The notes under the pieces were generated by a model. That model had not been told where the DNA came from and made no database searches. It was given only the letters and a program-made list of their open reading frames with translations. A stretch of 64,000 bases of DNA from Corynebacterium sp. SCR221107 (GTDB lineage Bacteria > Actinomycetota > Actinomycetes > Mycobacteriales > Mycobacteriaceae): assembly GCF_027886475.1 (NCBI RefSeq), contig NZ_CP115670.1:682001-746000 (forward strand), given 5' to 3'. The first letter of the stretch is position 1, and every line of letters starts with the position of its first letter. Positions 2 to 63,997 of the stretch are shown one piece after another. Position numbers and translations under genes: made by a program.

Positions 2-1168
2 GCAGAGAATCTCTCCGCACCGACCAGGCGCGCCACCGAGCTGATGGTTCGCGAACTCGATCGCTTCGAAGCTTTGCTCGCAGACTTGTTGGAAATCTCC
101 CGCCATGACGCAGGTGTGGCGGATCTCGCGGAATCCAATCTGGACCTGCGTACCTGTATTTCCGCAGCCTGGCAGCAGACCGAATACCTCGCCGACTCGC
201 TCGGGGTTCAGGTGCGCTTCATCAAGCCGGAGGAACCGGTGATGGTGGTAGGCGACTCGCGTCGCATCGAGCGCATCCTGCGCAACCTGTTGGCCAATGC
301 CATCGACCACTCGGAAGGCAAGCCAGTGGTGGTTCAGCTGGCCGAAACCACCCAGGCGGCGGCGATTACAGTCGTTGATCATGGCGTGGGTCTCAAGCCC
401 GGCCAGGAGGAGTTGGTCTTTAACCGCTTCTGGCGGGCAGATCCGTCTCGCGTGCGCCATTCCGGTGGCACGGGCCTAGGCCTTGCGATTAGCCATGAAG
501 ATGCTCGCCTGCACGGCGGCACCTTGGACGCCCTCGGCGAGGAGGGTGTGGGCACCATGTTCCGCTTGGTGCTGCCCAAGAAGCCGCATGAGCGCTATTC
601 GGTTGATCCTTTGCCTCTGGAAGTTCCCACGCCTGTGGATGAAGCCGGTATTTCCGCGCCCACTGGGGACATGGTGGTCGCGCTGGACGATGCCGCACGA
701 AAGGCATTGGTCGGGGGAGTTGCGGCCGTGGATAGCGCGCCGTTGGAACAAGAAACATTCACTGATGCGGCGCTGGGGGCGTCGGCAAGCAATGCAGCGA
801 CCGATTTCGAGGAGATTGCCAGCGGCGTGGGCAGCCTCGACGGTGCCAATAACGCCACGGGTGCCAAAATTTCCGACAGACTCGACAGCACAAGCGGTTC
901 CGATGACGCTATTGAGATGGACAATGTCGATGACGTGGAATGGGCCGGTTTCGATGACCCGGCGCACCCCCACTCAGGTAGGGTGACCAGCTACGACGAC
1001 CTCGTTGACCTCGAGGAATTAGAGAATTTCTATGACCCCGACTTCGAAGACACTGCGCATCCTCCGGCGCGGAAAGCAGGTAACAGTAATGGCGCAGCTG
1101 CTGACTCCGGGGATAAGGCAAAGGGTGAATACTCGGGTTCGCATCGGGCGGAGGAGGAAGAGCAGTGA
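2..1168 (+). CDS. mtrB: Sensor histidine kinase MtrB (5' end outside window)
   Basis: The reading frame is open from base 2, so the gene starts upstream. What remains is the end of the phosphoacceptor region (LLADLLEISRHDAG) and the complete HATPase domain: N box (NLLANAIDHSEG), G1 (DHGVGL), F box (FNRFWRADPS) and G2 (GGTGLGLAIS). MtrB is the membrane kinase of the MtrAB system, which controls cell-wall, osmotic and division genes in actinobacteria. After the catalytic domain comes a tail of about 190 residues rich in Asp, Glu, Ala and Ser with no recognisable domain. The stop codon overlaps the GTG start of lpqB by 4 bases, so the two are translationally coupled, as is usual for mtrA-mtrB-lpqB. 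Confidence 0.95.
   Translation, partial: AENLSAPTRRATELMVRELDRFEALLADLLEISRHDAGVADLAESNLDLRTCISAAWQQTEYLADSLGVQVRFIKPEEPVMVVGDSRRIERILRNLLANAIDHSEGKPVVVQLAETTQAAAITVVDHGVGLKPGQEELVFNRFWRADPSRVRHSGGTGLGLAISHEDARLHGGTLDALGEEGVGTMFRLVLPKKPHERYSVDPLPLEVPTPVDEAGISAPTGDMVVALDDAARKALVGGVAAVDSAPLEQETFTDAALGASASNAATDFEEIASGVGSLDGANNATGAKISDRLDSTSGSDDAIEMDNVDDVEWAGFDDPAHPHSGRVTSYDDLVDLEELENFYDPDFEDTAHPPARKAGNSNGAAADSGDKAKGEYSGSHRAEEEEQ
779..791 (+). repeat. 13-bp repeated word, exact (M=C)
   Basis: GCGTCGGCAAGCA on the plus strand, inside the unconserved acidic tail of MtrB. Confidence 0.8.
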
Positions 1169-3006
1169 TCAAACACGCAAAGGTGATGCTTGGTGTGCTC
1201 ATGGGCGCGAGCTTAGTTGCGGGCTGTTCGACGTTGCCTTCGCAGTCGGATCCGCAGGCGTTGCGTCCTTTCGAGGGAGCACAGGCCAGCCAGGCGCAGG
1301 GCCCCGAACCCGATCGGGCGCCAGACTTGCTCATCCGTGACTTCTACGCGGCCCTGGCACAGCCCAACCAGCAGTACCAGCTGGCGCGTACGTATCTGAC
1401 ACCGGATGCCTCAGCAGCCTGGAATCCGGACCTGACCATCAACGTGGTCGATCGCCTCGACGTCAACGTCGCGCAGCCCGGCGACCTTTCTTCGCCGACG
1501 GGCAGCGAAGAAATGAGCCCAGACATCAACGGCGACAATACGGCCACGCTCGCCGCCGCAGCCGCAGAATCCACGGCGGATGTGGCGCAATCGGAAAGTC
1601 AACTGGCACAGGCCACCTACCGGGTATCCGGGCTCATCGTCGGCCAGGTGGAAGTCGGTGGCGGGTACGTGCCCAACACCCAGTCGTTGAATGAAACCAT
1701 CGAACTGCAAAAGGTTGACGGGCAATGGCGGATCAGTTCCTTGCCGAACTCCATCGTCGTCGAGAAGACCGAGCTGCGCAACCGCTATTCCTCGCACAGT
1801 GTGTATTTCTTTGAACCGGGCGGCGGGACGCTCGTTAGCGACCGACGTTGGTTGTATTCTGGATCCAGCTCGTTGGATACGGCGTTGATTTCACTTATCG
1901 TGGAAGGACCTTCTCATACCCTCGCCCCCGGCGTGCTCAACGAGCTGCCTGCGGAGGCGGCGTTTGCGGGGATCACTAACGGCGTCTATCAGCTCACTGG
2001 CGTTGCCAAGCTTAACGACGATGCCCAGCGTCGCCTTGCCGCCCAGCTTGTCTGGACCCTTGCGCTTGCGGACATCCCGGGCCCCTATCACCTCGCCTTC
2101 GACGGTGCCAACGTGGTCTCCAAGGGCACGGGCTCCACTGACCTTACCGTGGACGATTTCGCCGAATTCAACCCCCAAGCGGCTACAAGCAGCATTGGTT
2201 CGCTTTTCGCCATCCGTGGAGGGCAGTTGGTGCAGGTCACCGGCAATCAAGCGACCCCAGTCGCCGGCGCGCTTGGCCAAATGACCTCCATCGAATCTGC
2301 AGACATTGCCTCTTCGACTGCTACTGTGGCGCTAGTGTCGGCAACCGGTGAGGATGAATCTAAGGACTCGCGCTTACTGCTGGCCGGTCAAGACGGTGCG
2401 ACCACTGAGATCCTCAAAGCCCGCACCTTGTCGCGCCCGACTTTCGAATACGGAGCCACCAGCGTGTGGACCGTCCTTGATGGGGAAACGGTGGTGCGTA
2501 TTTCTCGCTCGGCGGGCAGCGGCGACATCGCCCAGACCACGGTGGACACCACAGCATTGGGAGAGGATCCAAGCCCGATTGAATCGCTGCGCCTGTCGTA
2601 CACGGGAGTGCGCGCGGCCTTCATCATCGCCGGACGGGTCTTCGTGGCCACGGTGTCCCGGCCAAATGCCGGCGAGCGCAAGCTCACGAACGTCCAGCAA
2701 TATGCCGCCGACGCCGACCTCGAAGCCCGCACGCTTGACTGGCAACCCGATGGATCGCTGGTGGTGGGCACCTCCAATCCTGAGAGGCCAGTGTGGCGCA
2801 TCGAGCAGGACGGATCCAACTCCCAGACGATGCCCGCGGCAAATATCCAAGCACCTGTCGATGCCGTCGCTGCTACCTCGTCGAATGTCTACGTCACAGA
2901 TTCCCGTGCTGCACTCGAACTTTCCACCACCGGCACGAGCTCGACCTTCTGGCGTGAGGTTCAGGGGTTAGAAGGCGGGCGTAATATCCCTATCGTCTCG
3001 CGTTAG
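1165..3006 (+). CDS. lpqB: Lipoprotein LpqB, MtrAB-associated
   Basis: This 613-residue protein starts at GTG 1165, inside the end of mtrB. A short basic N-terminus, a hydrophobic stretch and the lipobox LVAGC (Cys21) mark an exported lipoprotein. A GerMN-like domain follows (around residues 190-330), then a C-terminal repeat region resembling a degenerate beta-propeller. In mycobacteria LpqB binds the MtrB sensor domain and affects MtrA phosphorylation. Both the position directly after mtrB and the length fit the family. Confidence 0.93.
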   Translation: MIKHAKVMLGVLMGASLVAGCSTLPSQSDPQALRPFEGAQASQAQGPEPDRAPDLLIRDFYAALAQPNQQYQLARTYLTPDASAAWNPDLTINVVDRLDVNVAQPGDLSSPTGSEEMSPDINGDNTATLAAAAAESTADVAQSESQLAQATYRVSGLIVGQVEVGGGYVPNTQSLNETIELQKVDGQWRISSLPNSIVVEKTELRNRYSSHSVYFFEPGGGTLVSDRRWLYSGSSSLDTALISLIVEGPSHTLAPGVLNELPAEAAFAGITNGVYQLTGVAKLNDDAQRRLAAQLVWTLALADIPGPYHLAFDGANVVSKGTGSTDLTVDDFAEFNPQAATSSIGSLFAIRGGQLVQVTGNQATPVAGALGQMTSIESADIASSTATVALVSATGEDESKDSRLLLAGQDGATTEILKARTLSRPTFEYGATSVWTVLDGETVVRISRSAGSGDIAQTTVDTTALGEDPSPIESLRLSYTGVRAAFIIAGRVFVATVSRPNAGERKLTNVQQYAADADLEARTLDWQPDGSLVVGTSNPERPVWRIEQDGSNSQTMPAANIQAPVDAVAATSSNVYVTDSRAALELSTTGTSSTFWREVQGLEGGRNIPIVSR

Positions 3007-3047
3007 CTGGGGAACCGACAGCTGCACCTGATTCGTCCAACGAGTTC

Positions 3048-3803
3048 ATGTTGGAAATCTTGCTGCCTCAATCGTGCATGGGGTGTGGGACGGCGGGGAC
3101 CCGCTGCTGTACAAAGTGTCTGCGCAGTCTGCGCACGCCTCCGCAAAGAATCACCACGAGGGTGGATCCGCACATGCCCGTCTGGGGCCTAGGTCCCTAC
3201 GGTGGCCCCCGGCGAAGGATGATTATCGGGATCAAAGAGCGTGGTAGAAGAGATGCCGTCGGTCCACTTGCTGTCATGACCACGGCGGCTATCGAATACC
3301 TCATTGCCCGCGGTGAGCTTGATTGGGACATCGTCATCGTGCCGGCACCTACCTTGCGCGCCTCAGCACGCAGGCGCGGCGGGGATCCAGTAACGCGTGT
3401 TGCCCGTGCCACCGGTTTCGATGTCGCGCCGCTGCTCGAGCACAGTCGCAGCGTCAAAGATCAGGTAGGGCTGGACGTGTCGGCTAGACGGTCTAACCTT
3501 TCCCAGGGCGTCACTATGGTCAAAAATTGGCAGCGCATCGCGGCAGACCGAGGCCTATTCCCGGAGCCAGGTAGGGGCGGGGCTTACGGTGCGGTAGGCG
3601 TCGGAAAGCACAGAGGAAATGTGACCTGTGCTATAACAGGCGGAATGTTGGTTGCGGAATCGATTGCAGCCTCGCGACCTGCGCGGGCGGTCATACTCCT
3701 CGATGACGTGATTACGACGGGGGCAACGATGGCGGCGTCTTCCGCCGTACTGACCAGCGCCGGACTAAAAATCAGGGGTGGATTGGGGTGGAGTAGCGCC
3801 TAA
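3048..3803 (+). CDS. ComF family phosphoribosyltransferase-like protein
   Basis: The 251-residue protein has an N-terminal Cys cluster (QSCMGCG and CCTKCL) typical of the ComF zinc finger. It also has the PRPP-binding loop VILLDDVITTGAT near the C-terminus and the conserved segment VPAPTLRASARRRGGDP. ComF proteins are linked to DNA uptake in competent bacteria, but in actinobacteria the role is unknown. Compared with the usual family pattern there is a poorly conserved segment before the PRPP loop, around residues 165-195, and the end is atypical (IRGGLGWSSA). One copy of the 13-bp repeated word lies in that segment. The gene sits 41 bases after lpqB and is probably cotranscribed. Confidence 0.8.
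   Translation: MLEILLPQSCMGCGTAGTRCCTKCLRSLRTPPQRITTRVDPHMPVWGLGPYGGPRRRMIIGIKERGRRDAVGPLAVMTTAAIEYLIARGELDWDIVIVPAPTLRASARRRGGDPVTRVARATGFDVAPLLEHSRSVKDQVGLDVSARRSNLSQGVTMVKNWQRIAADRGLFPEPGRGGAYGAVGVGKHRGNVTCAITGGMLVAESIAASRPARAVILLDDVITTGATMAASSAVLTSAGLKIRGGLGWSSA
3598..3610 (+). repeat. 13-bp repeated word, exact (M=A)
   Basis: GCGTCGGAAAGCA on the plus strand, inside the variable segment of the ComF gene. Confidence 0.8.
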
Positions 3804-3936
3804 GCGATAAAACAATGTGGCGCAAAGGTTATGACCAGAGGTATCCTTTGTGTGGAAGTTGATCCCGCCACTGAGGGACGTAGAGAGTAATCCCACTCAC
3901 AACATCCGTGGCGGCCGAACAGGAAGGTACGTGATT

Positions 3937-4611: not shown

Positions 4612-4694
4612 GAATTCCCATTCGCGCTCTCTAGGAGTTGACATTAAGACTGGGCCCCAGAAATCCTCGATGAACCAGAGAATCTGAGGGGCAC

Positions 4695-4811: not shown

Positions 4812-7373
<2,562 letters not shown>

Positions 7374-7387
7374 AGGCCCAAAGGTCA

Positions 7388-7468: not shown

Positions 7469-8026
7469 CTAGGCCACCCGCAAGGTTCGTACCCGTGCTG
7501 CACCGGTTTCGTCGAAGGTAACCTCGCTGCTAAACGCAAAGTGATGTTCGCGACAGGTTACGGTCCCGATGACATATATGCAGTCGGCTCCCGCCTCAAA
7601 GTGCGAGGAGTCGATTCTTATTGGGCCGTGAATTGATGCGTGTTTCGCGCGGTAATTGATTGATCGTGTGGCGTGTTCGGAAAAGAACCGCTGGGTGATG
7701 CTGGATAAAGGCTTGACCCGGAATGCGGCGGCCAAGCCAACGTTGATGAGCATGACTGCTTTGCGACGGTGGGCGCGTGGGATCTCATCGCCCGCTTTGA
7801 CCGCCGGTTGGTCAACAAGCGCAAGTAACATGCTCATTCCGGGGATGGGGCGCAAGCGTTGTTCGGACAACTGGTTATACTCCTTGAGGTGAAATACTCC
7901 AAGGCAGGCGTTTGATGTCACGGGGTGAACATGCCCCACCACGCGCGCTTGGGCTGCGCAGGTGGCAACTTGTGGGGCACAATAGAAAAGAATAAACGCT
8001 AGGTGTAGGCAGAAAGCATCAAGCAT
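7469..8026 (-). CDS. Rv3235-family (DUF6459-like) hypothetical protein
   Basis: The longest form is 185 residues, but the true start is unclear. The first 40-60 residues look unlike the family, and a start near the MSMLLALVDQ segment would give about 120 residues. The C-terminal two thirds (RSINYRAKHASIHGPIRI, then DCIYVIGTVTCREHHFAF) resemble the Rv3235/DUF6459 family of small actinobacterial proteins, whose relative lies near secA1 in mycobacteria. Function is unknown. The gene is convergent with secA and divergent from the HAD gene at 8095. Confidence 0.55.
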   Translation of the reverse strand: MLDAFCLHLAFILFYCAPQVATCAAQARVVGHVHPVTSNACLGVFHLKEYNQLSEQRLRPIPGMSMLLALVDQPAVKAGDEIPRAHRRKAVMLINVGLAAAFRVKPLSSITQRFFSEHATRSINYRAKHASIHGPIRIDSSHFEAGADCIYVIGTVTCREHHFAFSSEVTFDETGAARVRTLRVA

Positions 8027-8094: not shown

Positions 8095-8505
8095 GTGCGT
8101 GGCTTGATCGTTGATTATGTAGGCGTCCTGGACGGGACCGATGAAGACCAGCGTCGCTGGCGGAACCTGTTCGCGGCCGCGCGCGCCAATGGCGTGGGTG
8201 TAGCCGTGCTTTCGAATGACCCAGGTGGGGCTGGGGCAGAGCCCATCCGTGTCTTGCAGACCCAGGGCATCGTCGATGCCGTCTTGCTCTCCGGCGAGAT
8301 TGGTGTGGAGAAGCCGGACGAGGCCGCGTTCCAGGCCGCCGCCGACGCCCTCGATCTGCCCATGCGCGACTGCGTGCTTGTCGACGATTCGATCCTCAAC
8401 GTTCGCGCTGCCGTCGAGGCAGGGCTTGTGGGCGTGTACTACCAGCAGTTCGATCGCGCAGTCGTGGAGATTACCGGCCTGTTCGGCCTGGATGGTGAAT
8501 TCTAA
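8095..8505 (+). CDS. HAD-like hydrolase, small
   Basis: The 136-residue protein starts at GTG 8095. It begins LIVDYVGVLDGT, a HAD motif I in the form seen in HAD-IA relatives, contains motif III (GVEKPDEAAF) and motif IV (CVLVDDSILNVRAA), and has no large cap domain. The likely activity is phosphatase or phosphoryl transfer, with unknown substrate. It is coupled to the next gene through TAATG (one shared base). Confidence 0.75.
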   Translation: MRGLIVDYVGVLDGTDEDQRRWRNLFAAARANGVGVAVLSNDPGGAGAEPIRVLQTQGIVDAVLLSGEIGVEKPDEAAFQAAADALDLPMRDCVLVDDSILNVRAAVEAGLVGVYYQQFDRAVVEITGLFGLDGEF

Positions 8506-9053: not shown

Positions 9054-9391
9054 ATTGCCTGCGGCCGGGCATGCACAGGACAAACGCGGAACCCACGGTT
9101 GGTGGTTGTTAGCGAGGCAGTGGTTTTCTTAAGTGAAAATCGGAGGTTGGATCAAAGCAGATCGACGAGGTACCGGGGCTGGAAAACTAGGGTGAGTTTG
9201 CTCATCGCGTCCATAGGACCCACGGGGTAAAGGAGAGTGGGGCCGGTGGATGCCTGGGGGCGTCGGAAAGCAGCAATCCGAGGGTGACAACCGCTAAAGG
9301 ATGGGCATCCACGGGTTGCTAAGAATTGCGCAGGGTCGGTGCGTGGGAAGCTGTATGGCACCCGCGCCCACCCTTCGGTCTGGACAAATAG
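9054..9391. other. Intergenic stretch without a recognisable gene
   Basis: I see no conserved coding sequence here. It holds one copy of the repeated 13-bp word (9260-9272) and leads into the operator upstream of the reductase. Confidence 0.6.
9260..9272 (+). repeat. 13-bp repeated word, exact (M=A)
   Basis: GCGTCGGAAAGCA in intergenic DNA, preceded by a run of G. Confidence 0.85.
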
Positions 9392-9456: not shown

Positions 9457-10515
9457 GTGCCTTCCGACAAGCTGGCAGCCGTTCGCGGCATCCTGAAAAG
9501 GTTCACCACACCGCTGCTCCCGGACGACTATTCCGCGCTGATCAACCCGCTGTGGTCCACGCGCGAGCTGCGGGGCAAGATCGTGCGCGTGCAACGCGAT
9601 TTAGAGGTCGTGCATCTCGACATCATCCCAGGCTGGGGTGTGCCCACCGATTTCCATGCGGGCCAGTACATTGGCATCGGGGTGCTTGTCGATGGCCGCT
9701 ACACCTGGCGCTCCTACTCGCTGACCAACGCACCCGGTCATGACCATGGAACCTTGAGCATTACGGTGCGCGCTGTGGAAAAGGGCAAGCTGTCGAATCA
9801 TCTGGTCGACAACGTCGTACCCGGTACCACGATCCGCCTCTTGGCGCCGGCGGGCGAATTTCACCTCACCGATCCGTTGCCGCCGGCGATCGCGTTCGTC
9901 ACCGCCGGTACGGGGCTGACCCCGGTGATCTCCATGCTGCGCACGATGGATGAGCGCGGCCAGTTCGAGGATACCGACGTTGTGCTCGTGCATTCGGCCC
10001 GTACCCAAGACGACGTCTTGTTCGCTAGCGAGCTGCGCAGGCTTGCCGACGCCCACCCCAGGCTGCATGTTCACACCCAAATCACGGGCGAACAAGGCCG
10101 CATCAGCCCGGCGCAGCTGCCCGAGCTCATCCCCGGAATCGGCGACCGAGTGGTCTATGCCTGCGGGCCCGCAGGAATGCTTGATGAGCTCGAGGACTGG
10201 GCCAAAGAAAACCGCGTTGAGCTGAAAACCGAGCGCTTCACACTAGAGCGCGAATCGGATGCGCAGGGCGGGACGATCACCTTCCCCGGGCGCGCCACCG
10301 TCGAGGTCGATGGCGCCACCACCATCCTCGAGGCTGGCGAGAAGGCCGGAGTCAACCTTCCGTTCGGGTGTCGCATGGGCGTGTGCCACACCTGCGTGCG
10401 CCCGCTGGTGGAGGGACATGCCCATAACCTGGTCACCGGCGAAGTCCACGAACCCGGTTCCCGGGTGCGCACCTGCGTCAGCGTGGCCGCGGGCGATCTG
10501 ACCATCGAACCTTAA
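9457..10515 (+). CDS. Ferredoxin-fused NAD(P)H oxidoreductase (Rv3230c type), desaturase partner
   Basis: The 352-residue flavoprotein starts at GTG 9457, just after a G-rich Shine-Dalgarno. The FAD-binding domain carries RSYSLTNAP (about residue 87), the NAD(P)-binding domain carries TAGTGLTPVISMLR (about 150) and YACGPAGMLDELEDW, and the C-terminal plant-type 2Fe-2S domain carries CRMGVCHTC with a distant fourth Cys (RTCVSV). In mycobacteria the related Rv3230c passes electrons to the stearoyl-CoA desaturase DesA3, and here too the desaturase follows directly. The two probably form one operon under the operator at 9392. Confidence 0.9.
   Translation: MPSDKLAAVRGILKRFTTPLLPDDYSALINPLWSTRELRGKIVRVQRDLEVVHLDIIPGWGVPTDFHAGQYIGIGVLVDGRYTWRSYSLTNAPGHDHGTLSITVRAVEKGKLSNHLVDNVVPGTTIRLLAPAGEFHLTDPLPPAIAFVTAGTGLTPVISMLRTMDERGQFEDTDVVLVHSARTQDDVLFASELRRLADAHPRLHVHTQITGEQGRISPAQLPELIPGIGDRVVYACGPAGMLDELEDWAKENRVELKTERFTLERESDAQGGTITFPGRATVEVDGATTILEAGEKAGVNLPFGCRMGVCHTCVRPLVEGHAHNLVTGEVHEPGSRVRTCVSVAAGDLTIEP
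10041..10052 (-). repeat. Repeated word, variant (12 of 13)
   Basis: GCGTCGGCAAGC on the minus strand, inside the reductase gene. The last base of the 13-mer differs. Confidence 0.6.
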
Positions 10516-11852: not shown

Positions 11853-11865
11853 TGCTTTCCGACGT
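11853..11865 (-). repeat. 13-bp repeated word, variant ACGTCGGAAAGCA
   Basis: Intergenic copy on the minus strand, 28 bases after the desaturase stop. Confidence 0.8.
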
Positions 11866-11965: not shown

Positions 11966-12288
11966 GCTCACTTCAGGCAGATCCCCCTACATCGACAGGA
12001 CCTACCGCGGGGCAGGGGAGTGCGGTTGGGATGGGTAGATCATGAAGGCTTCCAGCCTGAAGGCCATTGGCTCCCGCATGTTGTCCATGTCTGGGTGCAT
12101 TGGACTGCGAAGCCGTCGGCGCATGGAAGGAGCGGTCTCAGCGTAACCACCGGCGCGCGGTGGACGTCGGAAAGCACAAAGCGCGCCCTACACTATTGCC
12201 CAACCTACGGGATGGGTGTTGGGTGCTTGTGCCGTTTAATTCTCGCGAGTTGGGAATATTGTGCGCCGGGGGTGTTGTTGAACCACTC
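11966..12288. other. Intergenic stretch upstream of the Old Yellow Enzyme gene
   Basis: No conserved coding sequence is seen. An open frame continuous with the next gene runs through it from 12067, but its translation is unlike any OYE. It contains a copy of the 13-bp word at 12164-12176. Confidence 0.6.
12164..12176 (+). repeat. 13-bp repeated word, variant ACGTCGGAAAGCA
   Basis: Intergenic copy on the plus strand, facing the copy at 11853 across the desaturase terminator. Confidence 0.8.
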
Positions 12289-14604: not shown

Positions 14605-15941
14605 TAGTTCGCGTCCCCGAGATCCCCGGCGGCGCTGCTATCAAGCATGTTCGCCCACATGGTCTCAAAACCAGGCAGAGTCTTGGAGGTGGTCTGGATG
14701 TTTTCGACCTCCACGCCTGTGACCCTGAGGCCGATGATGGCGCCAGCGGTGGCCATGCGGTGGTCGGCATAGGAGCGCCAGTGGCCGCCGTGCAGGGTTG
14801 CGGGTTCGATGCGCAGTCCGTCGGCAAGCTCCGTGCATGAGCCACCTAGGTTGTTGATCTCGTGACTGAGTGCTGCCAGCCGGTCGGTCTCGTGCCCGCG
14901 CAGGTGCGCTATGCCGCTCAGCCGGGAAGGCGTAGTGGCCACTGCCGCCAGCGCGGCCACAGTGGGGGTCAGCTCGCCGATGTCGGACATGTCAAGGTCG
15001 AGTCCGCGCAGCGAACCGCCCTCCGGGCCGGTGACGCGAAGATTGTAGGTGCTGCCTGCGGCCATGAGCTCCACATCGCAGCCCATCGTGGCAAGAATCT
15101 CCCGGATGGCGTCGCCGGGTTGGGTGGTGCGAATCGGCCAGCCGGGGATGATGACCGTGCCACCGGTGACCGCAGCCGCCGCAAGGAAGGGGGTGGCGTT
15201 GGAAAGGTCAGGCTCGATGACCCACGTGCCGCCGCCGATGGGGCCGGGGTGCACGGTCCATTCATTCTCCACGCTGGTGTCGACCGTGACTCCGGCGCGG
15301 CGCAGCATGTCCACCGTCATTTCGATGTGCGGCAAGCTGGGCAGGCGCCCGCCGCGGTGGCGCACGGTCAGCCCCATTTCGTAGCGGGGTGCCGCCAGCA
15401 GCAGACCGGAGACGAATTGGGAGGATCCGGAGGCATCGATTTTTACGATGCCACCTTTCGGGTGCCCGTCGCCGTCGATTTCGAAGGGGAGGCCATCGCC
15501 CTTGACTTTCACGCCCGCTTCGCGCAGGCCTTCGAGGATCTGGTGCATGGGGCGTTTGCGGGCCTGTGGGTCACCGTCAAAGAACACGGAGCCCTCGGCC
15601 AAAGCCGCCACGGGCGGAACGAAGCGCATGACCGTGCCGGCCAGCCCGCAGTCCACAGCGCCGCCGTGGAGGGGAGCAGGGTGAACCTTGACGGTGATAG
15701 AGGCGGTGCCGTGGGTGGTGGAGGATTCCTGGAAGCCCACGCCCATCGCCGCCAGTGCGGCCATCATGAGGTCGGTATCACGTGAGCGCAGCGCGCCTTC
15801 GATGGTGGAGGAAGAAGATGCGATGGCGGCAAGAATGAAGGCTCGGTTGGTAATCGACTTGGATCCGGGGATGTTGACCGTTGCCTCGACCGGCGTGCCC
15901 GCGTACGGCGCCTGCCACAAGTTCGCACTTCGCTTTTCCAT
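14604..15941 (-). CDS. aroA: 3-phosphoshikimate 1-carboxyvinyltransferase (EPSP synthase)
   Basis: AroA joins shikimate-3-phosphate and PEP in aromatic amino-acid synthesis. The protein is 445 residues from the ATG of [18 protein letters not shown]. It shows [18 protein letters not shown] near the N-terminus (PEP/S3P site), [18 protein letters not shown] and a late [14 protein letters not shown]. Longer in-frame starts upstream run through the oppositely oriented SRAP gene and are not conserved. An ATG three codons earlier overlaps the probable -10 box, so the MEKRS start with a leaderless mRNA is preferred. Confidence 0.93.
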
Positions 15942-35076: not shown

Positions 35077-35089
35077 TGCTTGCCGACGC
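35077..35089 (-). repeat. 13-bp repeated word, exact (M=C)
   Basis: GCGTCGGCAAGCA on the minus strand, 8 bases after the nanA stop, in the nanA-nanK gap. Confidence 0.85.
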
Positions 35090-37421: not shown

Positions 37422-38150
37422 CTAGGTGGTGGGCTGTGACTCGGGAGCGGCGCTGATTTGGCGCGCGATGGAGCGTCGCAGCGGGGTGTAATGGGTGTCG
37501 ACGAGCTCGGAGAAGCGGGTGGCATCCCCGTCGTGGAGGGCGCGAATCATGGACTCGTGTGCGCCGAGGGTTATCTGGACATCTTCGGGCATGGAGAGTT
37601 TGACCAGGGGTAGGACCTCCATGTGGACCTGCCAGAAGGCGTCGGAAAGCTCTTTGATAAGCGGATTGGAGATGGGCGCGAGTAGGAGCCGGTGGAACTC
37701 GCGATCCTCCTCAGCGAAGTCCACGCCCTGGACATGCTTGGCGCGCATTTTGTCTACCACGGCCAGGATGGGGGAGATGTCCTGGCCTTTCCATCGCTCA
37801 GCAAGTTCGTCAGCGAGCGCGTGATCGAAGGCGGCGCGCAGGTCGACGACGTGTTCGAGGTCTTTGAGGGAGTCGTCCACATTGAGCATGACGCGTAGTA
37901 CCATGCCGCGCACCAATGGTTCAAGGGACATTCCGGAGACGTACGTGCCGTGCCCGTGGCGGACCTCGACGATATCGAGGGAGCTGAGGGTGCGCATGGC
38001 CTCTCTGACGGAGGAGCGCGAACAATCCAGCGTTTCGCACAGCTCGGTCTCGCTGGGCAATGCGTCCCCCGAATGGAGGTGGTTGGTGCGAATAAAGCGC
38101 ACAATTCCATCGACAGCCATGCTTGATGCGCTTTTCGGTTTGATGGCCAT
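37422..38150 (-). CDS. nanR: GntR/FadR-type regulator, probable NanR
   Basis: The 242-residue protein has an N-terminal winged helix (ALPSETELCETLDCSRSSVR, about residues 29-48) and a C-terminal FCD ligand domain (VVDLRAAFDHALADELAERW; EEDREFHRLLL; LGAHESMIRALHDGD with metal His). Its position inside the nan/nag cluster, and two matching palindromes at 33956 and 38367, suggest it represses sialic-acid genes until a pathway sugar such as GlcNAc-6-phosphate or GlcN-6-phosphate is present, as in C. glutamicum. Confidence 0.85.
   Translation of the reverse strand: MAIKPKSASSMAVDGIVRFIRTNHLHSGDALPSETELCETLDCSRSSVREAMRTLSSLDIVEVRHGHGTYVSGMSLEPLVRGMVLRVMLNVDDSLKDLEHVVDLRAAFDHALADELAERWKGQDISPILAVVDKMRAKHVQGVDFAEEDREFHRLLLAPISNPLIKELSDAFWQVHMEVLPLVKLSMPEDVQITLGAHESMIRALHDGDATRFSELVDTHYTPLRRSIARQISAAPESQPTT
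37639..37650 (+). repeat. Repeated word, variant (12 of 13)
   Basis: GCGTCGGAAAGC, plus strand, inside nanR; the last base is T. Confidence 0.6.
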
Positions 38151-39966: not shown

Positions 39967-39979
39967 TGCTTACCGACGC
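39967..39979 (-). repeat. 13-bp repeated word, variant GCGTCGGTAAGCA
   Basis: Intergenic copy on the minus strand between the transporter remnant and the Rv3212-like gene. Confidence 0.75.
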
Positions 39980-46130: not shown

Positions 46131-46143
46131 ACGTCGGAAAGCA
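46131..46143 (+). repeat. 13-bp repeated word, variant ACGTCGGAAAGCA
   Basis: Intergenic copy 14 bases after the hairpin and 33 bases before the next start codon. Confidence 0.8.
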
Positions 46144-47019: not shown

Positions 47020-50000
47020 ATGACTCCGCCACTACCACCCACACCCCGCGTCCGCCTCGTCGCCCCCGCCAACACCCATGTCTACCGGCACTGGGACAAT
47101 CCGCTCTTTGAAAAAGCACAGGGAAGCTGGCGGCTGACCGGACCTGCTGGCAGTGGTGTCACCAGCCTCGTGTGCGATGTGGTGGCAAAGCAGATTCGCA
47201 GTGGTGTCGATCCCTCCACCATCCTGGTGATAGCCACCTCCAAGGAGGCGGCAGCGCAGCTGCGCCGGGGGATCACCGACCGGCTGTCGGATTTTTCTTT
47301 TAGCTCGGCCACCACCATGGTCCGTTCCGTTCACTCGGTGGCCTTTGCCATCCTGCGCCAGACCATGGATGAGGGATTAAGGCTGATCACCGGCTCCGAA
47401 ATGGACGCCGTCATCCGCGAGCTGCTGGAGGGCAACGCCGCCGAGCGCACCGTGGCCTGGCCCGCGGATGCCACCGCCGCGCTGGAAATGGTGGGATTCG
47501 CCCGTGGCCTACGCGATTTTCTCCTGCGCGCCTTAGAGCGCGGCTTAGGGCCACAGGACCTCATCGAGCTGGGCTCGAGGTACAACCGTCCGCTGTGGAT
47601 GTCAGCGGGGCAGTTCCTGCGCGAGTATCAGGCGGTCATGGCGCTATCGGGAAGGCGCAGCCTTTCTGCCTCCGAGCTTGTCTCCGAGGTCTTGCTGCAC
47701 GAGATCCCAGACATCGGTGCCCGCACCGTCATCGTCGATGATGCACAGCACCTTGACCCCAAATCCGCGCAGCTGGTGGCCACTCTCGCCGAGCGGGCGG
47801 AGTTGTCCATCATCGCAGGCGATCCGGAACAAGCTGTTTTTCACTTCCGCGGCGCGGATCCGGACTTCCTGAGAAAGCACCCCGTCGAGCATGAGCTGCG
47901 CCTAGAAAAAAGCTTCCGTGCCCCGCATACCGCCGGCTACATTTTGCCTACCGACGGTGCCCAGTGGGAGTTCGTCGCCGATCGCCTGCGCCGCGAACAT
48001 CTGCTCGAGGGCGTGGCCTGGAAAGACATGGCGGTCATCGTGCGCTCCCAATCCCAGATCGCCCCCGCGCGCCGTGCCTTGTTGGCGGCGGGTGTGCCCG
48101 TCCACGTGGATCCAACAGATCTGGTGCTGTCCACCCAGCGCATCGTGTCCTCGCTGCTCCTTGCCGTGCGCGCGCTGCACGGAAAACTGACCGCGGCCGA
48201 AATAGAGGAGCTGGCCTTGGGCCCCATCGGTGGCGCCGACCCGGTGACCTTGCGCAGACTCTACCGGGGCTTGCGCCTGGCCGAGATTCGTCGCGGTGGG
48301 ACACGGCGGGCGGCACAGATGCTCGAACGCCTCATTATTCCCGATGCCCGCTTCGCCGACGAGCGCGCCGAGTTGGAGGCGGACGCGAAAGACGTCCTCA
48401 CCGATCGCGAGCAAGACATCCTCGACCGCGTGCGTGGGGTGCTCGACGCAGGTCGTGCGGCGATCGATGCCCACGGCAGCGTGGAGGAGGTTCTGTGGGA
48501 AATATGGCACGCCACCGGATTGTCGCAGCACCTGCAGGCGGTGAGCCTGCGCGGGGGTGCCGCAGGCTCCCAGGCCGATCGCGACCTCGACGCAGTGATG
48601 GCCTTGTTCGATGCCGCCGGTGACTTCGTGGAGCGGCGCCCGTCGGCGTCGGTAAGCGCCTTCGTGCGCCACATCGAGGAACAAGAACTCCCCACCGGCG
48701 TGCGCGACCGGCGCCTTGCCACCCCGGACGCCGTACATGTTTACAGCGCGCACGGTACCACCGGCAAGCAGTGGCACATCGTGGCCGTGGCGGGCGTACA
48801 AGAAGACGTGTGGCCGCAACTGGGGGAGACCGGCTCACTGTTCGGTCAGGAAGAGCTCGTTGACCTGCTCGATGAGGGGATTGTTCCCGGAACCCCAGTC
48901 TCACATGCCGCAGCGCGTCTGGCCGAGGAAAAGCGCCTGTTCCACCTGGCGTGCACTCGCGCTACAGGCACGTTGATTGTCACCGCCGTCGATGCCCCCG
49001 ACGCCGATGAGGTGCGCGAACCCTCCCGGTTTATGCGGGAGCTCGGGCGCGTGCATTACCTGCTGGACAGCGAGGCGGATGCGGGCAATTCGCCAGCCCA
49101 GGCAACAGAAGGCGACGCCTCCGCCACCGACGACGCCCTTGCGCTGGAATTCGCTGAGCCCGGTGCCGTAGCAGAGCCGACCTACGTGCGCCTGCTCAGT
49201 GTTCCGAGTATCGTCGGCGAGCTGCGCCGGGTCGTGGCATCCGGCGCGGATTCGCCATTCGATGCCGCTGACCGGGAGCAGGCGGCCCGTCAGCTGGCCC
49301 GCCTGGCCGCGGCCGGGGTGCCCGGTGCCGACCCCGCAACTTGGTGGGCCGCCGGTGGCAGGAGCGAGTCGGAAGAACTCGACGTGCGTGCCATTTCCCC
49401 CTCACTACTGGAGACGGGATTGGAATGCCCCCTGCGCGCCAGCCTGTCGCGGGTGCGCGTGGAATCGGAAAACACGGTGCCTATGATGCGCGGTACCTTG
49501 GTCCACGCCTTCGCCGAGGCGGTTGCCAACGGCGTGGATGCCCCCACCGCGCGCGGGTTGGTGCGCGCGGCCTACGAACAACTCATCGGGGTGCCCTCCT
49601 GGCTCGTGCCCTCCTCGATGCAGGCCTGGGACACGATGGTTTCCCGGCTGGAGAAATGGATGGTGGAAAACGCCGCCCGGTTCGAGCTCATCGGTACCGA
49701 AGTCCCCGTCAAGGTCGACGTCGGCCACGGGGTCACCATCGCCGGGCGCATCGACCGCCTTGAGCGATCCAAGGATGGCCTGCGCATCCTCGATCTGAAA
49801 ACCGCCAAGACCGCGATCACCAAGGCCCAGGCCGCCGAGCACAAGCAGCTCGCGGCCTACCAGTTAGCCCTGAGCAAGGGCGAGTTGCACACCGATGAGG
49901 AAGGCAAACCAGAGGTTAAAAGCGGCGGCGGCCTTGAGATCGACATGGCCCAGCTGGTCTACCCGGCCCCTGAGACCAAGGCCATGACCACCCGCGAGCA

Positions 50001-53754: not shown

Positions 53755-54828
53755 ATGGCTAACCGTTATTTCGAGCGCTTCCGCTCGGTGGACAAGCTTA
53801 CGGGCATGCCTGAGCACACCTTGTTGCATGTCATCGGGATGCCTGCGAAGCAGGTCGCCAGCCCGGTCAAGCTGATCTTGAGGCGTTTCGTTTACGCTTT
53901 GGGGCTGATTATTGCCGTGGCTTTGATCGTGTACTTCGACAAGGGCGGGTACACGGAGCCGCTGACCTTCATCGATGCGTTGTACTATTCGGCGGTGTCA
54001 CTGTCGACGACAGGTTATGGTGACATCACCCCGGTCACGCAGCAGGCGCGCCTGCTTAACATCATCATCATTACCCCGCTTCGCCTGTTGTTCGTCGTCC
54101 TCCTGGTCGGTACCACCTTGTCGGTGCTGACGGAGGAGTCGCGCAAGGCATGGCAGATTCAGCGCTGGAGGAAGAGATTGCGCAATCACACCGTGGTCAT
54201 CGGATACGGCACGAAGGGCCGTTCGGCGGTTGCCGCTTTGCTTGCCGACGGCGTACCGCCGAAGGACATCGTCGTCGTCGACACCGACCAGCATGCCTTA
54301 GAGCTAGCCGCAAGCGCTGGCCTGGTAACCGTGACTGGTACGGCCACCAAGTCGGATGTCTTGCGCCTGGCGGGCGTGCCCAAGGCGAAGGCCGTGGTCG
54401 TGGCTCCGAACCTGGATGACACGGCGGTGCTGGTGACCTTGAGCGTGCGCGAGCTTGCCCCCTCCGCGTGGATTGTGGCAAGCGTACGCGAGTCGGAGAA
54501 CCAGCATCTGCTAGAGCAGTCGGGCGCAGATTCGGTGGTGATCTCCTCCGAGACGGCCGGCCGCATGCTTGGCCTGGCAACGGTGACGCCGTCGGTGGTG
54601 GAAATGATGGAGGACCTTCTCTCACCCGATGAAGGCTTCTCCGTCGCCGAGCGCCTCGTGGCCGAGGATGAAGTGGGTGCCAACCCCCGGCACCTTGCAG
54701 ACATCGTGCTCGGCGTGGTGCGATCCGGCGAACTCTACCGCATCGACTCGCCGGAGGCCGAGACCGTCGAGCCGGGCGATCGCCTGCTGTACGTGCGCCG
54801 CGTCTTCGCCGACGATGGCCAGAACTAG
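53755..54828 (+). CDS. Two-helix potassium-channel-like protein with RCK domain
   Basis: The 357-residue protein has two membrane helices (about 41-61 and 103-123) around a pore with selectivity filter TTGYGD. A cytoplasmic RCK/TrkA-N domain follows (HTVVIGYGTKGRSAVAALLA, a Rossmann nucleotide site at about 144), then a TrkA-C-like end. It probably carries K+ under nucleotide control and matches Rv3200c. An intergenic stretch of about 250 bases precedes it, so it likely has its own promoter. Confidence 0.9.
   Translation: MANRYFERFRSVDKLTGMPEHTLLHVIGMPAKQVASPVKLILRRFVYALGLIIAVALIVYFDKGGYTEPLTFIDALYYSAVSLSTTGYGDITPVTQQARLLNIIIITPLRLLFVVLLVGTTLSVLTEESRKAWQIQRWRKRLRNHTVVIGYGTKGRSAVAALLADGVPPKDIVVVDTDQHALELAASAGLVTVTGTATKSDVLRLAGVPKAKAVVVAPNLDDTAVLVTLSVRELAPSAWIVASVRESENQHLLEQSGADSVVISSETAGRMLGLATVTPSVVEMMEDLLSPDEGFSVAERLVAEDEVGANPRHLADIVLGVVRSGELYRIDSPEAETVEPGDRLLYVRRVFADDGQN
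54239..54251 (-). repeat. 13-bp repeated word, variant CCGTCGGCAAGCA
   Basis: Coding copy on the minus strand, inside the channel gene. Confidence 0.6.
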
Positions 54829-54853: not shown

Positions 54854-55567
54854 ATGCATGAGGATTGCCTGCTTTTCGACGCCTACGGTCGCATCCAACA
54901 CGAAAACGGCACACCGAAACTGTCGCAAAGGGTGGCCTTATTGCCCGCCTTCCCGATAGGAGATGGCCTGTGGGTGCAGCGCCTAGGCCATAAGGGTGAG
55001 GGCCCACAGTGGCACAGGGCAAGCGATAAATTGGCCGTGTATGCCCTCGGCGTCTTGGGTTTTAGAGAGCGTACCCGCGTCGATCCCACCAGCGGTGACG
55101 AGCTGGATTTCCAGCATCCCACCGTCGGGCGCACCGAAGCTGGAAGGGAGGTGTTCCCGCGCATCGATCCGGCGGTCATCGGGATCATCGAGCTCGCTGG
55201 TCAACAGCGAATCCTCCTGGGCAAGAATCGGCTGCGCCCGAGTTTCTACTCGCTGGTGGCCGGCTACGTGGATCTGGGCGAGACCTTCGAGGCGGCTATG
55301 GTGCGCGAGGTCAAGGAGGAGACCGGGCGCCGCATCGAGGACGCAACGTATGTGGCCAGCCAGCCATGGCCGTATTCGGGTTCGGTGATGGTGGGCATGA
55401 AGGCCACCACCACCGACGAAGATCCCGTCACCCAGACTGACGGGGAACTCATCGACATCGTGTGGGCCAGCAGAAAAGACATCGACGACAAGGTGTATCC
55501 GCTTCCCACCACGGGCTCGCTTGCGGCACGGCTGATCGGGGAGTGGATGCGCCAGCCCCGCAGCTAA
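54854..55567 (+). CDS. nudC: NudC-type NADH pyrophosphatase/decapping enzyme
   Basis: This 237-residue Nudix protein has the box GYVDLGETFEAAMVREVKEE with the TG that completes it, followed by the NudC-specific SQPWPYSGSVMVG. The family splits NAD(H) to NMN and AMP and removes NAD caps from RNA. It is shorter than E. coli NudC, and the four-Cys zinc ribbon before the Nudix fold is absent. It lies between the channel gene and uvrD2, as in mycobacteria. Confidence 0.87.
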   Translation: MHEDCLLFDAYGRIQHENGTPKLSQRVALLPAFPIGDGLWVQRLGHKGEGPQWHRASDKLAVYALGVLGFRERTRVDPTSGDELDFQHPTVGRTEAGREVFPRIDPAVIGIIELAGQQRILLGKNRLRPSFYSLVAGYVDLGETFEAAMVREVKEETGRRIEDATYVASQPWPYSGSVMVGMKATTTDEDPVTQTDGELIDIVWASRKDIDDKVYPLPTTGSLAARLIGEWMRQPRS

Positions 55568-57884: not shown

Positions 57885-59135
57885 TCACGCGGTGGCGCCG
57901 CGGCCTGCTTCGCATTCGGCGCCGTAGCAGGCGGTGCCGTCAGGTTCCCTGCTGTCATTGCACCTGCTGTCACATGCACAGCCTTCATTTTCTTCGCCGT
58001 TGCACCCACACCCGGAGTGCTTTCCGACGTCGCGGGCCTCGCCTTCGATCCAGGTTTCCACGCCCGGCACGCTTGACAGGCCCCTGCAGGCGGGGCTTTC
58101 TAAGCTGTCGAGGGCCTCGAGGTCTTCGGTTGTTACGATGGCGGGCCTAGCAGGCGGGTAGCGCAGTTTGTTCTTGAGGTCCTTGGCGTCGCGGTGCGCG
58201 AGCACTTCCGCGTCGAGCAGCGGTGGCAGTTTTCCTTCGGGGTGCTCGCACAGCGGGCACAGTTTCAGCCTTTCCATAACACCCACGCTCACCTCGTCGC
58301 GGTAGGGACTCATGCGCACCACCTGGCCCGGTTCCGGCCTTTCAACCTGCATCCCGGGGCCGGGAAGAGGCTCGGTGAGGTTGTGCAGGATCGCGGCCAC
58401 CCGGGATGCCAGCATGTGCTCGCACAGGGGGTCAAAGCGCATGGCCGCGCTGAGCTGGCTGCGCAGGATGCGGGCCTGCGGGTCGGCGCGCAATTCGTGA
58501 AGGTCGATGCAAAATGGGCACGGCCCGTCACCGTCGATACGCAAGGGGCCGATGATCACCTCCCCGTCCACGATGCGGGCGGGAATGATGGTTCTTCGGC
58601 GCGCAAGCAGCGCGGATCGCGCCGAGAGCAGGTGGCGGAAGCCGATATCGATGGCGGGGATGGATTCGCTGATGCGAAGCAAGAAGCTGCCCTCGGACTC
58701 GTCGCGCTGCGGCAGGCGTGGCTTCATGCCTGTCTCGGTGAGGATGTCGGCGACGAGGGAGGCGGTGTGCGAGCGGCCGAGGATGGCGACCTCCCTGTCG
58801 GGGACGAAGACAGTGAGCACACCGTGGGCCAAGAGATCGCTAATCAGGTTGCGGCTGGGGATTATCCCCAGGCCGGTGTTGCGCAGCTGCCTCGGTAGGG
58901 TCAGGGTGGGGCGTCGACAGGCGGCGAGCACGCCTGCCACCTTGGCGATGAGATGCTCGGGCAGCGCGACGATGCCCGCGCGTTCCGGGTCGGTGCCACA
59001 CTGCAACCCGGTCGGCGGGCGCAGGATGATGTGGGCATTGCGGCTTAACACCAGCGGGGCGGCGGTGGTGTCGATATTGTCCAAGGCGCGTACCTTTCGT
59101 CGGGCTCGAATACGGGGCCGTGCCTCAACGAGCAT
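57885..59135 (-). CDS. Cyclodehydratase-partner-like (TOMM E1-like) protein, Rv3196 type
   Basis: The conserved part begins near ALDNIDTTAAPLVLSRNAHI; the ATG at 59135 gives 416 residues, but a TTG at the LDNI segment is also possible. A segment GPCPFCIDLHELRADP (about residue 205) and a second pair CPLCEHPEGKL (about 290) form the two CxxC zinc pairs typical of the E1-like cyclodehydratase partner of YcaO enzymes in thiazole/oxazole peptide synthesis. No YcaO gene or precursor peptide is visible nearby. The last 45 residues are Cys-rich (GCGCNGEENEGCACDSRC, then two more Cys). Function is unknown. Confidence 0.6.
   Translation of the reverse strand: MLVEARPRIRARRKVRALDNIDTTAAPLVLSRNAHIILRPPTGLQCGTDPERAGIVALPEHLIAKVAGVLAACRRPTLTLPRQLRNTGLGIIPSRNLISDLLAHGVLTVFVPDREVAILGRSHTASLVADILTETGMKPRLPQRDESEGSFLLRISESIPAIDIGFRHLLSARSALLARRRTIIPARIVDGEVIIGPLRIDGDGPCPFCIDLHELRADPQARILRSQLSAAMRFDPLCEHMLASRVAAILHNLTEPLPGPGMQVERPEPGQVVRMSPYRDEVSVGVMERLKLCPLCEHPEGKLPPLLDAEVLAHRDAKDLKNKLRYPPARPAIVTTEDLEALDSLESPACRGLSSVPGVETWIEGEARDVGKHSGCGCNGEENEGCACDSRCNDSREPDGTACYGAECEAGRGATA
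58018..58030 (-). repeat. 13-bp repeated word, variant ACGTCGGAAAGCA
   Basis: Coding copy on the minus strand, in the variable linker before the Cys-rich tail of the cyclodehydratase-like protein. Confidence 0.75.
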
Positions 59136-61494: not shown

Positions 61495-61507
61495 TGCTTG
61501 CCGACGC
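61495..61507 (-). repeat. 13-bp repeated word, exact (M=C)
   Basis: GCGTCGGCAAGCA on the minus strand, in the divergent promoter region between the Rv3195- and Rv3194c-like genes. Confidence 0.85.
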
Positions 61508-62661: not shown

Positions 62662-63372
62662 CTAGGCGTCTTCCTTCGCGGTCTCGTCGGCATCCGGCTC
62701 GTCGGTAGCTGAGGCGGGCTGGTCTGCTAGGCCCAGCTCGTAGATCCGCTCGGCCGGATCATACTCGTCGCTCGAGACCATGTGCTGCAGGATCAATCCC
62801 TTGTCATTGTCCACCACGGTGATCACGGCGATGCTGCCGAGTGTGGACCAACCCACAACCTTTGTGCCCGTATCCTCCACCACGCGTGAGGAACGCAGCT
62901 CGGTGAGCAATTGTGTGGTCGAGGCGGCCTTCGCATCCGAGGCATAGAACTGGAACTGGCCTACTTCGTCGCCATCGCAGGCCACCGAGTCCTGCACTCC
63001 GTTGGGGGCGCAGGAGTCAAACTGGTCGAAGAGGGAATCCGGGGCCAGCGAGCCGAACTTTTTCCGCGCATCCTCGATGGCTTTTTGTTTTTCGCCGCTG
63101 GCGGAGGTGACAGAGCCGGTTGGGCGCGGTTTCGACGAGGTTGCGGTCGCCTCAGTGCGGGCATCGTTGCTTTCCGACGGTTCCTGGGTGCGGCTAGGAG
63201 AAGGCGTCGCGCTGGTGGTCTCCGGGGCCTGCGCAGGGGCCTGAACCTGAGTCTCGCCTTCGGGGGCGGCCTCGGATTGGTCACCGCCGCCGCACGCCAC
63301 CAGCGTCAAGGCGCAGCCCGCGACAACAGCCGCCCGGGTGGCCTTCACGGAAACTCTCAAGGTAAAGCGCAC
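62662..63372 (-). CDS. Putative lipoprotein of unknown function
   Basis: The 236-residue protein starts at a GTG (MRFTLRVSVK) with a signal peptide and lipobox LVACGGG. A Pro/Thr/Ser/Glu-rich linker follows (about residues 30-90), then a folded domain of about 120 residues with two Cys (FDSCAPNGVQDSVACDGDEV) that may form a disulfide. An acidic tail follows. I do not recognise the family. It converges with the PDZ protease gene with only 7 bases between them. Confidence 0.72.
   Translation of the reverse strand: MRFTLRVSVKATRAAVVAGCALTLVACGGGDQSEAAPEGETQVQAPAQAPETTSATPSPSRTQEPSESNDARTEATATSSKPRPTGSVTSASGEKQKAIEDARKKFGSLAPDSLFDQFDSCAPNGVQDSVACDGDEVGQFQFYASDAKAASTTQLLTELRSSRVVEDTGTKVVGWSTLGSIAVITVVDNDKGLILQHMVSSDEYDPAERIYELGLADQPASATDEPDADETAKEDA
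63168..63180 (-). repeat. 13-bp repeated word, variant CCGTCGGAAAGCA
   Basis: Coding copy on the minus strand, in the low-complexity linker of the lipoprotein. Confidence 0.7.
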
Positions 63373-63445
63373 GGTGTGCCAAGCCCTTCCGCCGAAATAA
63401 AAAATAAAAAACTTAAGTCAACACCCATCCTAAACGCATGTGCGA

Positions 63446-63997
63446 TTAGAGCGTCCCCAACCCATCATCAAACTCATCAAAGGAGTTATCAAAAGTCGCC
63501 TTCAACGCCAAGATGACACCCGGTGCAACACCTGGGCCACCGCGCAGCTCCACCTTGTCCTCAGCAAAAGGACCCAGCGCAGCCAGTTCCTCCTCGGAAC
63601 GCCGCAGCTGCAACAAGGTCAGCTCCGCATCTGAGCGCAACACCCCGGAAAACAGGCGCGCCGGGCGGGGGGTGGGATCTGTCGAGGAGGTATCGCGGAA
63701 CATGATCTCCTGAGCCAAGATCGCCCCCACCACCTGCGGTGGCCAGGCGATGCGGGAGATATAGTCACCCAATTCCTCCGAGCCGGGCAGGATGGTCTCC
63801 GGTAGGTTGTCTTGGACCACCAGGGTCAAAGGAGCGGTGTCTTCTTCGAGCAGCGCCGGGGAGGCGTCGGCAAGCAAAGAAGCAGGAACCAGCGCAAACA
63901 AGGTGGGGGAGGCGTCCCAGCCCTCGGCGTGGATAAAGTCGACCGCTTCCAACATGGCCTTATTTAATGCCTGGGGGGAAAGCTCGGGAGGGGTCAT
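63446..63997 (-). CDS. PPA1309 family protein
   Basis: The 183-residue protein starts MTPPELSPQALNKAMLEAVD, with its ATG at the window's right edge. The pattern TLFALVPASLLADASPALLE followed later by ISRIAWPPQVVGAILAQEIM is that of the actinobacterial PPA1309 family, whose gene usually lies beside the PDZ protease gene. Function is unknown. An upstream in-frame start cannot be excluded because the window ends. Confidence 0.82.
   Translation of the reverse strand: MTPPELSPQALNKAMLEAVDFIHAEGWDASPTLFALVPASLLADASPALLEEDTAPLTLVVQDNLPETILPGSEELGDYISRIAWPPQVVGAILAQEIMFRDTSSTDPTPRPARLFSGVLRSDAELTLLQLRRSEEELAALGPFAEDKVELRGGPGVAPGVILALKATFDNSFDEFDDGLGTL
63864..63876 (+). repeat. 13-bp repeated word, exact (M=C)
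   Basis: GCGTCGGCAAGCA on the plus strand, inside the PPA1309-family gene. Confidence 0.75.

Follow-up and report, generated by a model that had tools for sequence, protein, structure and literature searches.

A dispersed word with species dialects in Corynebacterium resembles a DNA uptake sequence

The stretch of DNA analysed here, called the window throughout, spans 64 kb of Corynebacterium sp. SCR221107 (positions 682001-746000 of a 3.04 Mb genome in one contig, NZ_CP115670.1) and carries many copies of a 13-base word built on the core CGTCGGHAAGC. This word is probably a DNA uptake sequence that is used across the genus in several dialects and serves transformation by way of a Tad pilus and ComEC. 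Genes in the window include FAS-I (2970 aa, 18492-27404, minus strand), inside which three CGTCGGHAAGC copies lie, and an AdnAB-like UvrD-helicase/PDDEXK pair (47020-50169 and 50166-53501, plus strand). The window holds 23 copies of the core, where 100 shuffles give a mean of 0.14 and a maximum of 2. CGTCGNHAAGC, in which the first spacer base is free and the second is not G, occurs 30 times, and the 13-mer with up to two mismatches occurs 36 times where 6.2 copies are expected. A first-pass annotation of the same letters had listed seven exact copies, nine near copies and seven further copies of the core, with equal orientation among the 16 main copies and a chance expectation well under one copy of the degenerate 11-mer. 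All of these copies are present (one noted at 10041 starts at 10040 when counted as a 13-mer), the main ones are split 8/8 by strand, and the phenomenon proves larger than that annotation claimed. The copies are as follows, with the peptide read where they fall in genes.

779..791, plus strand: exact 13-mer copy, called gene 2-1168, sense, reads ASASN
2010..2020, minus strand: spacer variant CGTCGTTAAGC, antisense, KLNDD
3598..3610, plus strand: exact 13-mer copy, between called genes but covered by open frame 3048-3803, which the caller rejected
6959..6969, minus strand: spacer variant CGTCGATAAGC, antisense, ELIDG
7025..7035, minus strand: spacer variant CGTCGTCAAGC, antisense, LLDDA
7758..7768, minus strand: spacer variant CGTCGCAAAGC, between called genes but covered by open frame 7469-8026
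8376..8386, minus strand: spacer variant CGTCGACAAGC, antisense, VLVDD
9260..9272, plus strand: exact 13-mer copy, between called genes
10040..10052, minus strand: core copy CGTCGGCAAGC, called gene 9457-10515, antisense, reads RLADA
11853..11865, minus strand: core copy, between called genes
12164..12176, plus strand: core copy, between called genes
14819..14829, plus strand: core copy, called gene 14604-15950, antisense, ELADG
18535..18547, plus strand: exact 13-mer copy, FAS-I gene, antisense, LLSDA
24245..24255, plus strand: core copy, FAS-I gene, antisense, SLADG
25184..25194, minus strand: core copy, FAS-I gene, sense, AVGKL
30960..30970, plus strand: spacer variant CGTCGTCAAGC, between called genes
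35077..35089, minus strand: exact 13-mer copy, between called genes
35710..35720, minus strand: core copy, antisense, QLADG
37639..37651, plus strand: core copy, antisense, ELSDA
39967..39979, minus strand: core copy with spacer GT, between called genes
41922..41932, plus strand: core copy, antisense, ELADD
42675..42685, plus strand: core copy with spacer GT, antisense, ELTDA
46131..46143, plus strand: core copy, between called genes
48647..48657, plus strand: core copy with spacer GT, within the first AdnAB-like gene, sense, ASVSA
54239..54251, minus strand: core copy, antisense, LLADG
54871..54881, minus strand: spacer variant CGTCGAAAAGC, antisense, LLFDA
58018..58030, minus strand: core copy, sense, DVGKH
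61495..61507, minus strand: exact 13-mer copy, between called genes
63168..63180, minus strand: core copy, sense, PSESN
63864..63876, plus strand: exact 13-mer copy, antisense, LLADA

Genome-wide counts no higher than base composition and codon usage would yield, or enrichment explained by one protein motif, had been named as grounds for refutation; neither was found. In the genome of the window (G000; other genomes are cited by similar handles), CGTCGGHAAGC occurs 942 times, 461 forward and 481 reverse, about 47-fold above a control consisting of the same word read backwards (20 copies; 13 forward, 7 reverse). The word also tops the 9-, 10- and 12-mers ranked by excess over a third-order Markov model in 100 kb of G000 stretches. 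Finer counts used a 464-kb sample, made up of the window and 20 stretches of 20 kb, which holds 144 copies and of which our own gene caller called 80% coding. The caller omits some open frames, such as 3048-3803 and 7469-8026 in the window, so the intergenic share of copies is probably somewhat overestimated. The 360 called genes (373.5 kb) hold 73 copies, 18 sense and 55 antisense; synonymous-codon shuffling of each gene (100 rounds) leaves a mean of 3.4 and a maximum of 10. The other 71 copies lie in 90.7 kb outside called genes, where a second-order Markov model predicts 0.19. Codon usage does not explain the abundance of the word. More broadly, a by-product of composition, codon usage or a single protein motif could be argued from the genic copies, which are concentrated in one antisense frame (53 of the 55 antisense copies, commonly x-L-[S/A/T]-D-x), but it is next to impossible given the shuffled genes and the copies between genes, for which the open frames missed by the caller are too few to account.

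The shape of the word was examined in the same sample. Between genes the consensus (71 copies) extends beyond the 13-mer, to approximately ccTGTGGG-CGTCGGMAAGC-AAAAA, and copies inside genes have weaker flanks. Counts of single substitutions indicate that change is tolerated in the two-base spacer that separates CGTCG from AAGC and that most other neighbours of the core occur near chance, so the core is best written CGTCG-NN-AAGC. The main exceptions are G-to-A at the second base (CATCGGM, 6 and 4 copies) and, in the form with C in the spacer, replacement of the second A of AAGC by C (8 copies) or G (5 copies). A multi-copy mobile element was rejected as the source, the sequence outside the extended consensus being unrelated between copies.

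Copies were present in all 23 sampled 20-kb pieces, with 1 to 20 copies each, and no replication-strand polarity was detected in the G000 sample: by the sign of the GC skew of each stretch, the G-rich strand carries 98 copies of CGTCGNHAAGC and the opposite strand 107. Together with the genome-wide orientation counts, this upholds the earlier statement that the word is not strand-biased in the manner of Chi or KOPS (FtsK orienting polar sequences). Of the 71 intergenic copies, 50 lie in gaps shorter than 600 bases. In these gaps the density is 1.15/kb between codirectional genes (34 copies), 1.17/kb between convergent genes (11 copies) and 0.38/kb between divergent genes (5 copies), compared with about 0.2 copies/kb inside genes. 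Two candidate roles were rejected on such grounds. The site of a promoter-bound transcription factor would show the opposite pattern, since divergent gaps are the poorest in the word, and terminator hairpins formed by inverted pairs find little room when only 3 of 184 neighbouring pairs are opposite in orientation and start within 60 bases of each other.

A Chi-like site, acting on a recombination helicase-nuclease so as to direct self DNA to repair and foreign DNA to degradation, deserves consideration because the AdnAB-like pair lies in the window; PDDEXK_1 matches occur in 53/53 genomes of the genus. Chi is read on one strand and is typically strand-biased, and KOPS are strand-polar, whereas the word shows neither property. 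The element is also enriched between genes and wider than typical Chi sites, the nuclease family is found both with and without the main word, and the different word of one species described below (G347) would demand a new recognition. We regard a Chi-like function as unlikely.

The genus-wide distribution was assessed in a family survey of 401 genomes, 53 of the same genus and 348 of 30 other genera. CGTCGGHAAGC ranges from 4 to 942 copies per genome within the genus; outside it, the highest count read from the table is 117, at most about 4.5 times that genome's own control. In a larger set of 242 genus genomes, the wider pattern CRTCGNHAAGC reaches at least four times its control in 191 and stays below three times in 51, with none between three and four. 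The strands are balanced here as well, with totals of 86,444 forward and 86,379 reverse in the 188 word-rich genomes, those with 150 copies or more and a ratio of 4 or above. When words were counted in 100-kb samples of 12 other species without fixing a word beforehand, and then genome-wide, three dialects emerged before AAGC: CGTCGGM, CGTCGW and CATCGG. The CGTCGGC/CGTCGGA dialect is found in G000, G367 and G261, CGTCGAT/AC/TT in G351, and CATCG-NN-AAGC in G355 and G189; among the 53 genomes, more than 200 copies of CATCGGHAAGC are present in G189, G233, G355 and G303 and in no other. When the three word patterns are summed, 39 of the 53 genomes have at least 234 copies and 12 have at most 51, while G383 (93 copies) and G308 (73) are intermediate.

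We placed the dialects on a tree of ComEC and HolA from the 53 genomes (midpoint root; HolA missing or left out for two), which serves as a guide only, as it derives from one neighbourhood that includes a competence gene. The main word occurs on both sides of the root, and the CATCGG dialect has two separate positions inside a single supported clade. The dialects follow the phylogeny, if not perfectly. At the level of sites, directed comparisons within two species pairs (88% identity) retained 8/12, 9/10, 6/9 and 6/7 copies against a background of 36-41% for all 11-base windows (P 0.06, 0.002, 0.06 and 0.01; the comparisons are not independent). Retention at orthologous places above background, like the genome-wide spread, would suit the binding site of a protein that organises or segregates the chromosome (KOPS-, matS- or parS-like, or nucleoid-associated). 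Such a site is an improbable explanation, however: the word shows no polarity from origin to terminus and no concentration at the terminus, every sampled piece carries it, 51 of 242 genomes of a single genus have no clear excess of CRTCGNHAAGC, and there are several dialects plus one private word.

Species with little or none of the main word were examined separately. Nine species without the main word form one clade (support 100) on the ComEC and HolA tree, while G347, G054 and G217 lie elsewhere. We sampled 100 kb from each of G347, G308, G217, G054, G138, G292 and G280. G347, which belongs both to the 51 genomes below three times the control and to the 12 with at most 51 copies, carries a word of its own, CGCGRCGTCAT, with 644 copies (315 forward, 329 reverse) against 6 of the control and at most 35 in any of the other 52 genomes. 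Separate from this dispersed word, a tandem repeat of 30- and 39-base units at approximately 13344-13750 of stretch L115 of G347 holds 13 copies of TCGTAGGAGGC. Dispersed words were also found in G138 (GTGGCGTCG, 15 copies against 2.4 expected), G292 (GGCGTCGGAT, 10 against 0.5) and G280 (GGGGCGTCG, 17 against 1.5), in stretches among L136-L150. These three species are the ones sampled from the nine-species clade, and their words share GGCGTCG, which forms the left half of the element in G000; these are sample counts of words picked from the very samples in which they were counted, and hence a lead. In 20-kb stretches of the two closest relatives of G138, GTGGCGTCG is likewise raised (4 copies against 0.3 in G126, 3 against 0.5 in G298); 20-kb stretches of G240 and G286 showed no excess of GGCGTCG. 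The GGCGTCG-based excesses suggest weaker dialects rather than plain loss. G217 has a weak candidate, AACGATAAGCAA (5 copies of the 12-mer), and no clear alternative word emerged from the 100-kb samples of G054 and G308. Few of the species without the main word are therefore known to lack any word, and some may use other words.

Mobile DNA offers a further comparison. The poorest G000 stretch, L046, has a single copy and contains, at approximately 2137-9511, an integrated element without the word in which integrase-, excisionase- and primase-like genes (identities judged by eye) lie beside a glmS-like gene. TerL matches, present in 4/53 genomes, led to prophages in G367; the TerL of G367 shares 78% identity with its counterpart in Juicebox, a phage of Corynebacterium xerosis. 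Two G367 prophage stretches (L291 and L293, 40 kb) hold 3 copies of CGTCGNHAAGC, where the host rate of 0.54 per kb from five other G367 stretches predicts 21.6; their phage part alone holds 0 in 33.8 kb against 18.3 (P ~1e-8), with ends chosen post hoc. The G208 stretch around TerL has 4 copies in 20 kb and 0 in its middle 11 kb, and the complete 40-kb genome of phage Poushou, whose host may use another dialect, has 0 CGTCGNHAAGC and 1 CATCGNHAAGC. Scarcity in the prophages examined would also be expected of a self-mark by which a defence or modification system spares tagged DNA, just as a Chi-like site would be scarce in phages. A self-mark is very unlikely, though, as the word is a non-palindromic 11-mer with flanks, unlike the usual modification motifs, and its enrichment over the reversed control in G000 is unusual for protection motifs.

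The genus genomes examined encode machinery that an uptake sequence would serve. ComEC (PF03772) and a T2SSE/Tad-type ATPase are found in 53/53 genomes, the Flp pilin PF14029 exceeds its cut-off in 52/53, and the TadE-like family TIGR03816 in 49/53. G000 encodes ComEA-ComEC and a seven-gene tad cluster comprising a CpaE/TadZ homologue, TadA, two T2SSF proteins (one barely above the Pfam cut-off), a DUF4244 Flp pilin and two TadE-like proteins, of which one falls just below the NCBIfam cut-off (38.1 vs 40 bits) and the second matches TIGR03816. In the actinobacterium Micrococcus luteus, tad genes and ComEA/ComEC are required for transformation (PMC4322843, PMC8467076). ComEC of G000 is short (468 aa, L077 1432-2838), with 22 residues after the Competence domain; neither ComEC length nor its C-terminal tail, which varies from 0 to 267 residues over the 53 genomes, tracks the word, and both were rejected as discriminators. 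An apparent loss of Tad pilins in G383, where the word is eroded, was discarded because these genes sit at the ends of short contigs (4,120 and 32,288 bases). The tad loci of G159, G225 and G338 contain a TadE-like pilin that matches TIGR03816 in two pieces (frames of 178-188 aa); these genomes have a thinner word, at 234-256 copies. A scan with an alignment of the Tad ATPase returned 80 loci, two of them from Corynebacterium (a metagenome-assembled genome [MAG] and C. urealyticum), and the best match among named genomes was the MAG. Its locus (L171) holds 16 CGTCGNHAAGC in 21 kb, most commonly as CGTCGAAAAG (7 copies), a further spacer flavour; the C. urealyticum locus holds 0 in 7 kb and the other 78 loci 18 in 1.38 Mb.

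Several observations weigh against an uptake sequence. Copies per 20 kb are over-dispersed in G000 (variance/mean 1.76). The word is scarce in the prophages examined, yet this scarcity is not absolute, because the complete 41-kb genome of phage Juicebox, whose host may likewise use another dialect, has 4 CGTCGNHAAGC and 2 CATCGNHAAGC, and the 10 kb of L292 adjoining a G367 prophage stretch has 3 copies. ComEC, the Tad-type ATPase and the pilins occur both in species that carry the main word and in species that lack it, and do not separate the two groups. Among the nine species that form the principal clade lacking the main word, seven have a Tad-ATPase match that starts at profile position 60-100, compared with 2-13 in the others, but these late starts are confined to one clade and represent one event at most. 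The comparison of related species that had been proposed from the window is supportive in the dialects found over the genus; presence of the machinery genes did not help to decide, as some species that lack the main word may use other words.

The first-pass annotation had likened the word to the uptake sequences of Neisseria and Haemophilus. This likeness is supported, as the genome-level predictions mostly agree: hundreds of copies balanced between the strands, an intergenic excess, a single favoured reading frame, dialects, prophages poor in the word, and com and tad genes. The other suggestion of that annotation, sites for a nucleoid or methyl-directed system, keeps a small probability. Each of the rival explanations, by comparison, misses a measurement, because Chi and KOPS fail on strand balance, promoter-bound factors on the divergent gaps and composition on the shuffles. 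The dialects and the replacement of the word point to a recogniser whose preference drifts, a drift described for the DNA uptake sequences (DUS) of Neisseriaceae.

From these patterns we infer recognition at uptake, by a receptor, with biased uptake as the cause of the accumulated copies. A receptor of the uptake machine would prefer DNA in which C[G/A]TCG-NN-AAGC, with its flanks, has the dialect of the species itself; this receptor is most likely one of the minor pilins of the Tad/Flp pilus or, within ComEA/ComEC, the ComEA part. Tagged fragments would be imported more often and then recombined into the chromosome, and the word would accumulate where it is harmless, between genes and in permissive tripeptides such as L-S/A-D, while staying rare in phage DNA that had bypassed the uptake filter. 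A shift in receptor preference could then allow a new dialect or word to take over.

Among known systems, the Neisseriaceae DUS is similar in having many short, non-palindromic copies and species dialects (PMC3630211). The Neisseria sequence GCCGTCTGAA (PMC6370729) and GGCGTCGGAA match at 8/10 bases, which we take as coincidence. The Corynebacterium system differs in its phylum and in its pilus locus, here Tad/Flp; its dialects vary mainly at the two-base internal spacer and one core base, one species has another word, and close inverted pairs are few (the 3/184 above). Uptake itself has been demonstrated for DUS, whereas it is predicted for the Corynebacterium word. The uptake signal sequence (USS) of Pasteurellaceae has an extension around its core. 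The Corynebacterium word shares with it a short core, a favoured reading-frame orientation and a weaker extension around the core, and differs in word and phylum. A favoured orientation in reading frames is described for known uptake sequences (PMC2346458), and the USS receptor is itself a prediction, the minor pilin ComN/PpdA (PMC12616744). Transformation in Micrococcus luteus is alike in phylum and in its tad cluster and ComEA/ComEC; the term "uptake sequence" is absent from the main texts of both articles cited above for that species. Chi, KOPS and HIP1 are also dispersed, over-represented short words, but Chi and KOPS are strand-polar and HIP1 is palindromic, and the Corynebacterium word is neither. 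As an observation apart, two palindromes are over-represented in the window, TGAGCTCA with a count of 14 where 2.3 is expected and TTGGCCAA with 10 where 1.8 is expected, both strands being counted and each occurrence therefore counted twice.

The Corynebacterium system would accordingly work like DUS and USS in another phylum, presumably with another pilus, and presumably as a member of neither named family. Among the matches listed from the titles and abstract openings of open-licence PMC articles (a set without preprints or subscription papers), none describes an uptake sequence in Corynebacterium, and we know of no uptake-sequence system outside Proteobacteria. It is moderately likely that the Tad/Flp machine recognises a self word, that its preference has drifted to give dialects and been replaced in one lineage, that the dialects act as barriers to gene flow, and that this is the first uptake-sequence system outside Proteobacteria. 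If true, natural transformation, which is not known to have been demonstrated in Corynebacterium, would be widespread in a large genus, and the DNA acceptable to each species could already be read from its genome. An actinobacterial lineage would have evolved uptake sequences independently, which would allow the effect of biased uptake on genomes to be tested anew. With 191 genomes carrying the main word, several dialects and one replacement, the coevolution of receptor and word becomes testable, and tagged DNA might ease the transformation of laboratory strains.

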